The notes beneath the pieces are model-generated. The model was not told where the DNA came from. It did no database searches and was given only the letters and a program-made list of their open reading frames with translations. Positions 47,082 to 61,401 of a stretch of 64,000 nt of DNA are shown here, in pieces. This DNA comes from Mesorhizobium sp. AR10 (GTDB taxonomy: Bacteria; Pseudomonadota; Alphaproteobacteria; Rhizobiales; Rhizobiaceae), in the NCBI RefSeq assembly GCF_024746795.1, contig NZ_CP080524.1, forward strand, positions 3,636,001 through 3,700,000, read 5' to 3'. The position numbers were made by a program, and so were the translations under genes. How positions within the stretch are numbered: position 1 is the first letter of the stretch; each line of letters begins with the position of its first letter.

Positions 47082-48386
47082 ATGCTTGACATCAAATGGA
47101 TTCGCGACAACCCGAAGGCCCTTGTCGAAGCGCTTGTTAAGCGCTCGTGGTCCGGTGAGGATGCGCAGTCCACGGTCGACCGGCTCATCGCCTCGGATGA
47201 GGCGCGGCGCGAACACGTCACTGAGCTTCAGACAAAGCAGGAGCGCCGCAACGCCGCTTCGAAGGAGATCGGCAACGCCATGCGTTCGGGCGATGCCGCG
47301 CTTGCCGACAAACTGAAAGCCGAGGTCGGCGAGATCAAGACCTTCATCCAGAATGGCGAGGCGCGCGAACGCGAACTCGACAAGGCGCTGAACGATGCAC
47401 TGGCAGTGCTGCCCAATGTGCCGCTCGACGACGTGCCAGTCGGCAAGGACGAGCACGACAATGTCGTCAGGCGCACCGTCGGCAAGGTGCCGACACGCCC
47501 CAATTGGGTGAAGGAGCATTTCGAGATCGGCGAAGCACTCGGCATGATGGATTTCGAGCGCGCCGCGAAATTGTCCGGCTCGCGCTTCACCGTGCTGAAG
47601 AGCGGGCTGGCGCGAATGGAACGCGCGCTCGGCCAGTTCATGCTGGATCTGCACACCACCGAGCACGGCTACGAAGAGATCCAGCCGCCGCTGATGGTGC
47701 GCGACGAGGTCCTTTTCGGCACAAACCAGCTGCCGAAGTTCGAGGAAGACCTTTTCTTCACCCGGCATGGAGACGGCAGGCTGGGCTTGATCCCCACCGC
47801 CGAAGTCCCGCTCACCAATCTCGTGCGCGAGGAGATAACCGCCCATGAAAAGCTGCCGCTGCGCTACACGGCGCTGACGCCGTGCTTCCGTTCGGAAGCA
47901 GGTTCGGCCGGTCGCGATACGCGCGGCATGCTGCGCCAGCACCAGTTCTACAAGGTCGAACTGGTGTCGATCACCGACCAGGAGTCCTCGCTCGCCGAGC
48001 ACGAGCGGATGACCGAGTGCGCCGAGGAAGTGCTGAAGCGGCTCGGCCTGCCGTTCCGCACCATGACGCTGTGCACCGGCGACATGGGCTTTGGCGCGCG
48101 CAAGACCTATGACATCGAGGTCTGGTTGCCGGGCCAGAACGCCTATCGCGAAATCTCGTCCTGTTCGGTGTGCGGTGACTTCCAGGCGCGGCGCATGGAC
48201 GCCCGCTACAAGGACAAGGACGGCAAGGGCAACCGCTTTGTCCATACGCTGAACGGCTCCGGCACCGCCGTCGGCCGCGCGCTTATAGCTGTCATCGAAA
48301 ACTACCAGAATGAGGATGGCAGCGTAACCATTCCTGAAGCGCTGCGGCCTTATATGGGTGGTCTGGCAAAGATCGAATCGAAGTAA
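47082..48386 (+). CDS. serS: seryl-tRNA synthetase
   Basis: Predicted 434 residues, class II synthetase. N-terminal coiled-coil tRNA-binding arm (about 30-105), then class II motif 2 [20 protein letters not shown] and motif 3 [18 protein letters not shown]. It charges tRNA-Ser and tRNA-Sec. Its TAA overlaps the surE ATG by one base. No T-box is visible upstream. Confidence 0.97.
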
Positions 48387-59025: not shown

Positions 59026-60456
59026 CTACTCCGCGGCAGCTTGCGCCGTCGGCGCCGGCAAGCCCAGCCATTCGCGGCAGTCCCGCAGTGCCCGCGCTGT
59101 CGTCGCCTTCTTTTTCGCGATCGACTTTTCCTTGCCGCGAAAGCGACCCTCGAGCCCGTCGGGCCGCAGCTTGGTGCCGGGGTCCAGGGGTGGGAACAGG
59201 CCGAAATTGACGTTCATCGGCTGGAACGAACGTTTTCCTGGCTCGTCGTCGGAAACGATGTGGCCGCCGGTGATGTGGTTGAGCAGCGCGCCGAGGGCGG
59301 TGGTCAGCGGCGGCAGCGATGGTGCGTGGCCGAGCCGCTCGGCGGCGGCGAAGCGGCCGGCCAGCAGGCCGATGGCCGCGCTCTCGACATAGCCCTCGCA
59401 GCCGGTGATCTGGCCGGCAAAGCGCAGGCCGGGGCGCGACTTCAGCTGCAGCGAGGAGTCGAGCAAGGTCGGCGAATTGATGTAGGTGTTGCGGTGCAGG
59501 CCGCCGAGGCGGGCGAAGTCGGCATTTTCGAGGCCCGGTATGGTGCGGAACACGCGCACCTGTTCGGCATGCTTCAGCTTGGTCTGGAAGCCCACCATGT
59601 TGTAGAGCGTGCCCAGCGCATTGTCCTGCCGCAGCTGGACGACGGCATAGGCCTTCACCGTCGGATTGTGCTCGTTTGTCAGCCCCATCGGCTTCATCGG
59701 TCCATAGCGCAGCGTCTCGACGCCGCGTTCGGCCATGATCTCGATCGGCAGGCAGCCGTCGAAATAGGGCGTGCCTTCCCATTGTTTGAATTCGGTTTTC
59801 TGGCCGTCGACCAGCGCCTGCACGAAGGCCAGGTACTGCTCCTTGTCCAGGGGACAGTTGATGTAGTCCTTGCCGGTGCCGCCGGGCCCGACCTTGTCGT
59901 AACGCGACTGGAACCAGCAGATGTCCATGTCGATAGAGTCGAAATGGACGATCGGCGCAATGGCGTCGAAGAAGGCGAGCGCGTCGGCGCCGGTCACTTC
60001 CGCGATCGACTGGGCAAGCCCAGGCGCGGTCAGCGGGCCGGTGGCGATGATCGCCTGATCCCAGTCCGTCGGTGGCAGCCCCGGCACTTCCTCGCGCTGG
60101 ATGGTGATGAGTGGATGCGCCTCGAGCCTTTTGGTCACCGCTTGCGAAAACCCGTCGCGGTCGACGGCAAGCGCGCCACCGGCCGGCACCTGGTGCGCGT
60201 CGCCGGCGCTCATGATCAGCGAGCCGGCCAGCCGCATTTCGGCGTGCAACAGGCCGACCGCATTGTTTTCGGCGTCGTCGGAGCGAAAGGAATTCGAACA
60301 GACGAGCTCGGCCAGCCCATCCGTCTTGTGGGCGTCGGTGCCGCGGACGGGACGCATTTCATGCAGCACGACCGGCACGCCGGCTTGCGCTGCTTGCCAT
60401 GCCGCTTCGGAACCGGCGAGGCCGCCGCCGATGATGTGAATGGGATTTTTGCTCAT
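59026..60456 (-). CDS. trmFO: methylenetetrahydrofolate-tRNA-(uracil-5-)-methyltransferase TrmFO
   Basis: Predicted 476 residues. FAD-binding [10 protein letters not shown] (10-19) and the catalytic region [10 protein letters not shown] with Cys53 at the same position as the catalytic Cys of Bacillus TrmFO. It forms ribothymidine 54 in tRNA using methylenetetrahydrofolate as the methyl donor. The ATG before the nucleotide-binding strand is used. Downstream on the strand is a small hypothetical gene. Confidence 0.95.
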
Positions 60457-60520: not shown

Positions 60521-60645
60521 CCAAAAACAACAACACCCGCCGGGGGAGGAGGTCCGGCGGGTGTCGTTTTGGTGGTCGATCCTCGGGAGGAGGTGAAGAT
60601 CGACCGTATTCGTCATCGCCGGGGAGGAGGTCGGCTTTGACGAAA
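60521..60645 (-). ncRNA. cuckoo/CcsR-type sRNA, copy B
   Basis: Three hairpins, each with the ten-base loop ACCTCCTCCC on the reverse strand. H3 60611-60642 has two internal mismatches. H2 60574-60605 has stem GGTCGATC / GATCGACC. H1 60533-60564 has a perfect 11-bp stem ACACCCGCCGG / CCGGCGGGTGT followed by TTGTTGTTTTT, so it doubles as a terminator. The loop is an anti-Shine-Dalgarno sequence. Exactly 180 bp from copy A, and aligned to it over its whole length. Known alphaproteobacterial relatives (cuckoo RNAs, CcsR of Rhodobacter) sit behind DUF1127 genes, as here. Exact 5' end not determined. Confidence 0.85.
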
Positions 60646-60704
60646 TTCTTTTCGCCTGAAGACGAAATCTCTTTCGCTTCGTGAAAGGGGGCGAAACCCT
60701 TTTC

Positions 60705-60825
60705 GGGAAACAACGCCCGCCGCGGGAGGAGGTGCGGCGGGCGCCGTTTTGGTGGTCAACCCTCGGGAGGAGGTGAAGGCTGACCGTATCCGTCAGGGTC
60801 GGGGAGGAGGTCGACCCTGGCGAAA
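60705..60825 (-). ncRNA. cuckoo/CcsR-type sRNA, copy A
   Basis: Three hairpins with identical ACCTCCTCCC loops on the reverse strand. H6 60791-60822 is an 11-bp stem with one G-T pair. H5 60754-60785 has two mismatches. H4 60714-60743 has a perfect 10-bp stem CGCCCGCCGC / GCGGCGGGCG followed by TTGTTT. It begins about a dozen bases after the stop of the second DUF1127 gene on the same strand, so it is probably cut from or read with that mRNA. Stem sequences differ from copy B while loops are invariant, with compensatory changes that support real RNA structure. Confidence 0.87.
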
Positions 60826-60835
60826 TTCCTTAACT

Positions 60836-60976
60836 TCAGAGCGCCTTGCGGGCGACGTGCTTGATCTCGTCGCGGATGATGCCGAGATCATGGAGCTGGC
60901 GGTTCGAAAGGCGACCCAGCTCGTTAACGGTGTCGCGGTAGACGCGCCAGTTACGATAGTTACGGATCAGGTTCAT
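60836..60976 (-). CDS. DUF1127 small protein, copy 2
   Basis: Predicted 46 residues, MNLIRNYRNWRVYRDTVNEL then GRLSNRQLHDLGIIRDEI, the DUF1127 (YjiS-like) pattern with the conserved L-x-DLG-I core and a basic, Arg-rich start. Such proteins bind RNA and affect RNA turnover; Rhodobacter CcaF1 is a DUF1127 protein encoded with CcsR sRNAs. It directly precedes the sRNA pair. Only about ten residues differ from copy 1, so the two arose by duplication. Confidence 0.88.
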   Translation of the reverse strand: MNLIRNYRNWRVYRDTVNELGRLSNRQLHDLGIIRDEIKHVARKAL

Positions 60977-61025
60977 TGTCGTTCTCTTTTCAAACTGGTT
61001 CGGACCATTTGCGGCCCGAAGAGGA

Positions 61026-61166
61026 TTAGACCGCCTTGCGGGCGACGTAGTGAATGTCGCTGCGGCCGATGCCGAGGTCGTTCAGTTCACGGTTGCTCAG
61101 GCGGCTCAGCTCGGAAACGGTGTTCCGGTAGCGGCGCCAGTTGCGGTAGTTGCGGATCAGGTTCAT
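61026..61166 (-). CDS. DUF1127 small protein, copy 1
   Basis: Predicted 46 residues, MNLIRNYRNWRRYRNTVSEL then SRLSNRELNDLGIGRSDI and a basic tail VARKAV. Same length and architecture as copy 2, 49 bp upstream of it. First gene of the putative DUF1127-DUF1127-sRNA-sRNA transcription unit. The longer frame ending in the same stop starts in the promoter region and was rejected. The upstream DNA holds TTGCAT and TGCTAT at 17-bp spacing, a possible promoter (low certainty). Confidence 0.88.
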   Translation of the reverse strand: MNLIRNYRNWRRYRNTVSELSRLSNRELNDLGIGRSDIHYVARKAV

Positions 61167-61401
61167 GGTATTCTCGTTTCGTCTTTCTTTCGGATCATTC
61201 CGTCTTTCAGTACGCCATGAAGATAGGTGGACCTGTATCGATTTAAAAGCGCTATTGGTGCATAGCAGCAATGCAAATTGTGCAATGCAATATTAACGCG
61301 CGTTCACGTCTTCGACACAAACAAACCCGAATCGGAAAATGCCGTTGCGTCAACGGCTTGCCCGGATCGGCTGAAAAAATGACCAAGCTGGGGAGAAGGG
61401 T

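Follow-up and report, generated by a model that had tools for sequence, protein, structure and literature searches.

The window (the whole 64,000-nt stretch of DNA analyzed) carries on its minus strand two short DUF1127 genes and two small RNA (sRNA) units, preceded by a putative operator and promoter and followed by trmFO. Listed from 5' to 3' on that strand, the features are:

61259..61284, minus strand: putative LsrB/VtlR-type operator, in which TGCACAATTTGCAT (61271-61284) overlaps CATTGCTGCTATGCA (61259-61273)
61220..61248, minus strand: putative sigma-70 core promoter TTTTAA-N17-TATCTT, with a predicted transcription start near 61213
61026..61166, minus strand: DUF1127 gene a, 46 aa (PF06568, E value of 1.5e-16; frame checked)
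60836..60976, minus strand: DUF1127 gene b, 46 aa (PF06568, E value of 4.7e-15, 45 of the 46 residues used; frame checked)
60708..60828, minus strand: αr14 sRNA unit 1, "first" lineage in the unit tree, with three hairpins and aSD loops (RF02344, 94.6 bits; fold z score of -8.1)
60528..60649, minus strand: αr14 sRNA unit 2, "last" lineage in the unit tree, with three hairpins and aSD loops (RF02344, 91.9 bits; fold z score of -8.9)
60523..60566, minus strand: third hairpin of unit 2 with its T-rich tail, the probable terminator of the array as judged from the difference in T runs between last and other units
59026..60456, minus strand: trmFO, the downstream neighbor, outside the unit (NF003739, 680.2 bits, cut-off of 262; putative ATG start at 60456)

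The two RNAs together span positions 60528 to 60828, and the whole operon-like unit spans positions 60523 to 61284. The stop codon of DUF1127 gene b and αr14 unit 1 are on the same strand and only 7 nt apart, and 71 nt separate unit 2 from trmFO. The initial annotation of this region described the RNAs but not their genomic context, i.e., the two DUF1127 genes directly upstream of the array. A short DUF1127 gene directly 5' of an sRNA array on a shared strand is the arrangement of the CIN1 locus of Rhodobacter sphaeroides (see below).

Six exact copies of ACCTCCTCCC were identified on the minus strand (starts at 60544, 60585, 60622, 60724, 60765, and 60802), and the matching loops of units 1 and 2 are spaced by exactly 180 bp. 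With up to one mismatch allowed, the window contains 9 copies, compared to a mean of 3.75 and a maximum of 8 in 100 shuffled sequences. Both units are predicted to fold into three hairpins, each displaying CCUCCUCCC in its loop, at -66.3 kcal/mol (unit 1) and -62.9 kcal/mol (unit 2), and none of 200 shuffled sequences reached this stability for either unit. Pattern search and folding thus confirmed the six identical loops, the 180-bp period, and the three hairpins per unit that had been noted from the sequence. The covariance-model search proposed in the same annotation gave an end-to-end match for both units: the Rfam model RF02344 (ar14) covers them over model positions 1 to 123 on the minus strand (E values of 5e-16 and 1.9e-15), and the scores listed above exceed its curated cut-off of 58.8 bits. 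The reverse-strand tandem of cuckoo-type sRNAs that had been proposed is therefore upheld, and the window RNAs are two full-length members of the already published αr14/NfeR1/cuckoo family. The accompanying label CcsR fits the arrangement, which is related to that of Rhodobacter CcsR, but the direct match is to αr14/NfeR1.

The αr14 RNAs (RF02344, SmelA075-type) are described as being ~123 nt long, with three hairpins, identical CCUCCUCCC anti-Shine-Dalgarno (aSD) loops, and variable stems (PMC10746234, PMC7143759, PMC3927594), and the units found here are alike in these respects. The complementarity of the loops to Shine-Dalgarno sequences, already pointed out for this locus, agrees with the aSD description in PMC3927594 and PMC10746234. 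Since three loops define the family and tandems of two or three units are the rule at this locus, the supposedly "unusually high motif dose" turns out to be ordinary. The RNAs themselves are thus nothing new, and it is their context that is noteworthy. Among the 32 stem pairs compared between units 1 and 2, 23 were identical, five were changed on both sides with pairing kept, two were changed on one side with pairing kept, and two (hairpin 1, positions 5 and 6) were paired in unit 1 and lost in unit 2. The suggestion of compensatory stem changes is accordingly borne out except for these last two pairs.

The founding member of αr14 is NfeR1, and six copies are known in Sinorhizobium meliloti (PMC7143759). 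Six were also identified in the host genome, including the two at this locus. All 146 genomes of the genus contained a match (145 above the cut-off), as did 116 of the 121 sampled genomes of the taxonomic family of the host (108 above the cut-off), and the model had no match in 14 control genomes. One of the other host copies (L006; C1:343654-343772) is located on the other contig (C1), <1 kb from an opposite-strand match to the suhB-family model RF00519 (L315; C1:342778-342849; 46.8 bits), and a lone CCTCCTCC is found ~224 nt upstream of the second loop of this copy.

We compared the region upstream of trmFO, a gene found in 143 of the 146 genus genomes, using 90 loci (the 30 best matches and 60 picked by hand from the matches listed). 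At least one DUF1127 gene precedes the first αr14 unit in all 90. Two such genes were counted by rule in 86 loci and one in four, although the length limit of the rule may have lost some genes in these four. When third loops were allowed to drift, two αr14 units were counted in 53 loci, three in 35, four in one, and a single unit in one (L121), where it was found only by a relaxed rule. The distance from the stop codon of DUF1127 gene b to the first loop is 19 to 25 nt in 85 of 89 loci. At three loci (L068, L091, and L095), the first αr14 loop is located ~4.9 kb before trmFO, indicating that the DUF1127-αr14 unit holds together when the distance to the neighbor changes.

The units of an array differ in their flanking sequences. 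A run of at least four T residues past the third hairpin was present in 67 of 90 last units versus 2 of 126 others, and the mean number of T residues in the 20 nt past this hairpin was 9.49 versus 4.95. A T run confined mostly to last units is what a single transcript of the whole array, terminating at its final hairpin, would be expected to show. The sequence AATTTCG, a possible cleavage site as judged from its position, was located just 5' of 80 of 89 first units, 11 of 37 middle units, and 47 of 89 last units. A generic promoter and terminator scan of the locus gave no minus-strand promoter and no minus-strand terminator, and on the plus strand it gave one promoter-like site and three terminator-like sites; its terminator rule admits only loops of 3 to 8 nt and is therefore blind to ten-base loops. 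Third-codon-position conservation was 0.95 for DUF1127 gene a and 0.92 for gene b (29 loci, including the window), compared to 0.82 for the first 120 codons of trmFO (30 loci); the values over 86 loci, a comparison that lacks the trmFO control, were 0.93 and 0.86, respectively. Such conservation may reflect a constraint acting at the RNA or codon level in the DUF1127 genes.

An alignment across Mesorhizobium, which had also been proposed, was used to compare the stems and loops. In the 216 units of the 90 loci, CCTCCTCCC was exact in 215, 208, and 203 cases (loops 1, 2, and 3, respectively), a conservation that is partly built in for loops 1 and 2, as these were part of the unit search rule (at most one mismatch), whereas loop 3 was placed wherever it fitted best within 16 nt. 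With the leading A included, the ten-base form is less well kept in loop 2 (173 of 216). Among the distinct hairpins (63, 97, and 30 for hairpins 1, 2, and 3), 83.7%, 85.6%, and 85.5% of the cells were paired, versus 70.0%, 75.0%, and 70.8% with shuffled partners, and the observed values exceeded both the maximum of 200 shuffles and the slid versions; as the sequences are related, the covariation is to be read as support and not as a formal test. The pairs that failed frequently were those at positions 5 and 6 of hairpin 1 (28 and 24 of 63) and position 10 of hairpin 2 (37 of 97). Overall, the alignment suggests that the loops stay fixed while the stems covary.

In a tree of 176 distinct units, which is built on few columns and has many open forks and unsettled bootstrap values, first, middle, and last units were almost cleanly apart, with 4 label changes compared to 76.2 in shuffled labelings (0 of 200 as low). 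The exceptions were two middle units placed among the last ones and one first unit placed among the middle ones. The window pair consists of one "first" and one "last" unit, suggesting that the tandem is old. We also considered a recent tandem duplication as the source of the 180-bp period and rejected it, because first and last units are separate lineages in the tree.

Upstream of DUF1127 gene a, TGCACAATTTGCAT matches exactly the TGCA-N6-GCAT form of the LsrB site of nfeR1, which is backed by electrophoretic mobility shift assays and mutants (PMC10746234), and the overlapping CATTGCTGCTATGCA matches the VtlR motif (PMC12595884) with 3 mismatches in 15 positions. Each of the two patterns has five matches in the 64 kb, versus 2.75 and 3.21 expected, so neither is rare alone; the TGCA-N6-GCAT match upstream of DUF1127 gene a is the sole one near the units, and the other four in the window are far away. 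A transcription start near 61213 would put the site at about -71 to -58, and its nfeR1 counterpart is located at -72 to -57 (PMC10746234). TGCA-N6-GCAW was found 5' of DUF1127 gene a in all 86 loci in which both DUF1127 genes were recognized, and it is located 256 to 261 nt before the stop codon of that gene in 85 of 87 matches. The alignment of the 86 loci also showed conservation of CTTTTAAA, TCGATA, and CCTAT with the following T in the core promoter region. An LsrB-site promoter of the NfeR1 type, ~60 to 70 nt before the sRNA start, was not present at the locus. DUF1127 gene b contains no TGCA-N6-GCAT and no evident local patch of third-position conservation, which still leaves room for an internal promoter.

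The host genome also has a candidate regulator. A 298-aa LysR gene is located 77 nt behind trxB and matches PDB entry 9HH1 over its full length (E value of 2e-142). This entry is the LsrB protein of Agrobacterium, and lsrB is in an operon with trxB in Rhizobiales, the only order in which LsrB is said to occur (PMC11975290). A search for lsrB by way of suhB-type matches revealed no LysR gene recognizable by eye among the ORFs beside five such matches. The operator match in the promoter region and the LsrB-like gene beside trxB are both features expected of the LsrB/VtlR regulon, to which the locus may belong. We take the small Agrobacterium gene atu1667 to be a DUF1127 gene. In the VtlR/LsrB regulon of Agrobacterium and Brucella, which includes AbcR sRNAs and small DUF1127 genes, VtlR directly activates atu1667 (PMC7486931), and in Brucella three DUF1127 genes are under its positive control (PMC12595884); the motif is similar to that of the window locus. 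The difference is that these two sources, as far as consulted, do not describe an αr14 array downstream of such a gene. Another kind of control is described for S. meliloti duf1127-1, the leader of which acts by upstream ORF attenuation (PMC12218461).

To see the unit from the side of its promoter, public genomes were scanned with a degenerate 22-nt promoter pattern, TTGCAYTGCACAAWWYGSAWTG, which contains neither DUF1127 nor αr14. It returned 104 stretches, 89 of which had DUF1127 followed by αr14; the remainder comprised four with DUF1127 only (three cut by the stretch end), one with αr14 only, and ten with neither (three cut). Mesorhizobium accounted for 61 of the 80 named records, and since the pattern had been derived from sequences of this genus and its close relatives, the scan shows the coherence of the unit and not its breadth. 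A stricter promoter pattern based on published work on NfeR1, CTTAGAC-N17-CTATAT together with the loop, gave 0 stretches in public genomes, which indicates that the literature consensus is not literal.

We consider it likely that the locus is an LsrB/VtlR-activated DUF1127-DUF1127 operon, the 3' part of which yields anti-SD αr14 sRNAs. This reading draws on the family, structure, covariation, and position of the units, the conservation of the upstream element, the terminator asymmetry, and the LsrB-like gene beside trxB. The transcription, processing, regulator binding, and targets that we infer would be as follows. The LysR-type redox regulator LsrB (VtlR) would bind the TGCA-N6-GCAT element and activate the sigma-70 promoter, and the two DUF1127 frames would share one transcript with the αr14 array, terminating in the last unit at its T-rich hairpin. 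RNase E might then cut near the AU-rich stretch before each unit and free stable three-hairpin RNAs, perhaps assisted by a DUF1127 protein in the way that CcaF1 acts on CcsR in Rhodobacter. The single-stranded CCUCCUCCC loops would pair with the Shine-Dalgarno regions of mRNAs and block their translation. Several observations count against this reading: the generic scan gave signals on the plus strand only, the four other host αr14 copies lack a DUF1127 neighbor, some stem pairs fail frequently, long perfect targets do not stand out, and the element is missing upstream of DUF1127 in some family loci and near αr14 in many loci without DUF1127 (counts given above and below).

The closest precedent for the RNAs, NfeR1, is a 123-nt, Hfq-independent transcript with its own promoter; it is activated by LsrB and uses its aSD loops to silence mRNAs (PMC10746234). 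The window locus shares with αr14/NfeR1 the multicopy nature and TGCA-N6-GCAT in the regulatory region, but here two DUF1127 genes stand between the element and the RNAs. It is unlikely, though the best of the alternatives, that the αr14 units are independent genes with their own promoters, as S. meliloti nfeR1 is, and that the DUF1127 neighbors are incidental. A comparison within the taxonomic family covered 114 further αr14 loci (4 from the host genome, the 30 best places, and 80 picked by hand among the matches listed), 113 of which were readable by the unit rule. The strict element is located 84 to 87 nt before the first loop in 19 of the 113 loci, and 14 of these 19 have no DUF1127 gene in reach, as would be expected of independent genes; likewise, none of the other four αr14 copies of the host genome has a DUF1127 gene within 1.5 kb. 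In the remaining 5 of the 19 loci, a DUF1127 gene is found ~160 to 200 nt upstream of the first loop. Among 44 loci without DUF1127 in reach, the strict element was near αr14 in 16 and absent in 28, many of which had near variants by eye. However, in the 34 of 113 loci where αr14 begins <60 nt behind a DUF1127 stop codon, as it does in the window, the strict element was never within 160 nt of αr14 (0 of 34), and a looser element was located upstream of DUF1127 in 28 of them (6 without), compared to 274 of 1,868 background tiles. The mere 7 nt between DUF1127 gene b and unit 1, and the DUF1127 gene before the array throughout the genus, likewise argue against independent genes. Given this 7-nt gap and the promoter-like element that precedes both DUF1127 genes, the two RNAs are probably not two stand-alone genes. 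An alignment of the window element and the upstream regions of four αr14 loci showed GCA, GCA-N-TGCTGC, and another GCA in all five (one with a one-base gap).

Still less probable is that the array serves mainly as a 3' untranslated stability or termination element of the DUF1127 mRNA and has no role in trans. The T-rich tail typical of last units and the near-constant position behind DUF1127 would suit such an element, but a terminator or stabilizer needs no three identical CCTCCTCCC loops amid diverging stems, αr14 units without DUF1127 exist, and the NfeR1 RNA of S. meliloti is trans-acting (PMC10746234). Repeated loops are known to act as protein sponges elsewhere. That the many identical C-rich loops per transcript here act as such a sponge, binding a protein or the 3' end of 16S rRNA, the latter akin to the titration of the 16S tail put forward in the initial annotation, is very improbable. 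The loop has the anti-SD sense (the aSD motif of the papers), so that it cannot pair with the 16S tail and could only compete with it for mRNA. This sense of the loop relative to the tail follows the wording of the papers, as the 16S 3' tail was not found in the host genome by pattern or by rRNA model.

Targets were sought in the same sense. Upstream of ATG codons in the genome, GGGAGGAGG occurred 3 times versus 2 times for the reversed control, and no long perfect target of this kind near ATG stood out genome-wide; GGGAGGA before ATG occurred 172 times versus 14 times for the control, an excess that ordinary Shine-Dalgarno usage explains too.

For the operon reading, the nearest known arrangement is the R. 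sphaeroides CIN1 locus (ccaF1 and CcsR1 to CcsR4), in which an array of CcsR-type sRNAs lies downstream of a DUF1127 gene and the two are cotranscribed, with RNase E- and DUF1127-dependent processing (PMC10253847, PMC8625941). CIN1 differs in having one DUF1127 protein of 71 aa instead of two of 46 aa; in addition, the units described here match αr14 and the element is of the LsrB type. The likeness drawn here is one of arrangement. For Mesorhizobium and near genera, we propose more broadly, at even odds in our judgment, that LsrB drives a composite operon for DUF1127 proteins and an αr14 array of variable length (from one to four units among the 90 loci), that these units are ancient paralogues tied to their position in the array, with constant loops and lineage-specific stems, and that stand-alone NfeR1-type genes share the operator. 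If so, arginine-rich DUF1127 proteins and aSD RNAs would form one module tying redox state to translation-initiation control. The proposal joins three lines of work, i.e., LsrB and αr14 (NfeR1), VtlR and DUF1127, and the maturation by CcaF1 of sRNAs from its own transcript, and with operator, DUF1127, and αr14 array in one conserved unit, both the processing by DUF1127 of its own αr14 tail and the dose effect of unit number become testable in a tractable symbiont. By term counts among the papers listed, LsrB and DUF1127 were not found together with NfeR1, "cuckoo RNA," or αr14, although the promoter link may be in print, e.g., in the 2015 cuckoo paper.

Some further layouts were observed. In 22 of the 113 loci (L008, L009, L011, L014, L016, L019, L023, L024, L198, and others), one to three αr14 units are located upstream of DUF1127 genes, and in three of these (L023, L024, and L198) a TGCACAAAACGGAATG element was seen by eye further upstream, so that the sRNAs might derive from the 5' leader of a DUF1127 mRNA. 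Another locus (L306) has one DUF1127 gene followed by five αr14-like units by the unit rule, the fourth with odd spacing. Finally, a similar sequence (L352; 83.1% identity over 70% of the query) is present at ~47975 to 48091 of the mobilizable Mesorhizobium terrae plasmid NZ_CP044217.1, where it lies unannotated between transposase and nuclease genes.
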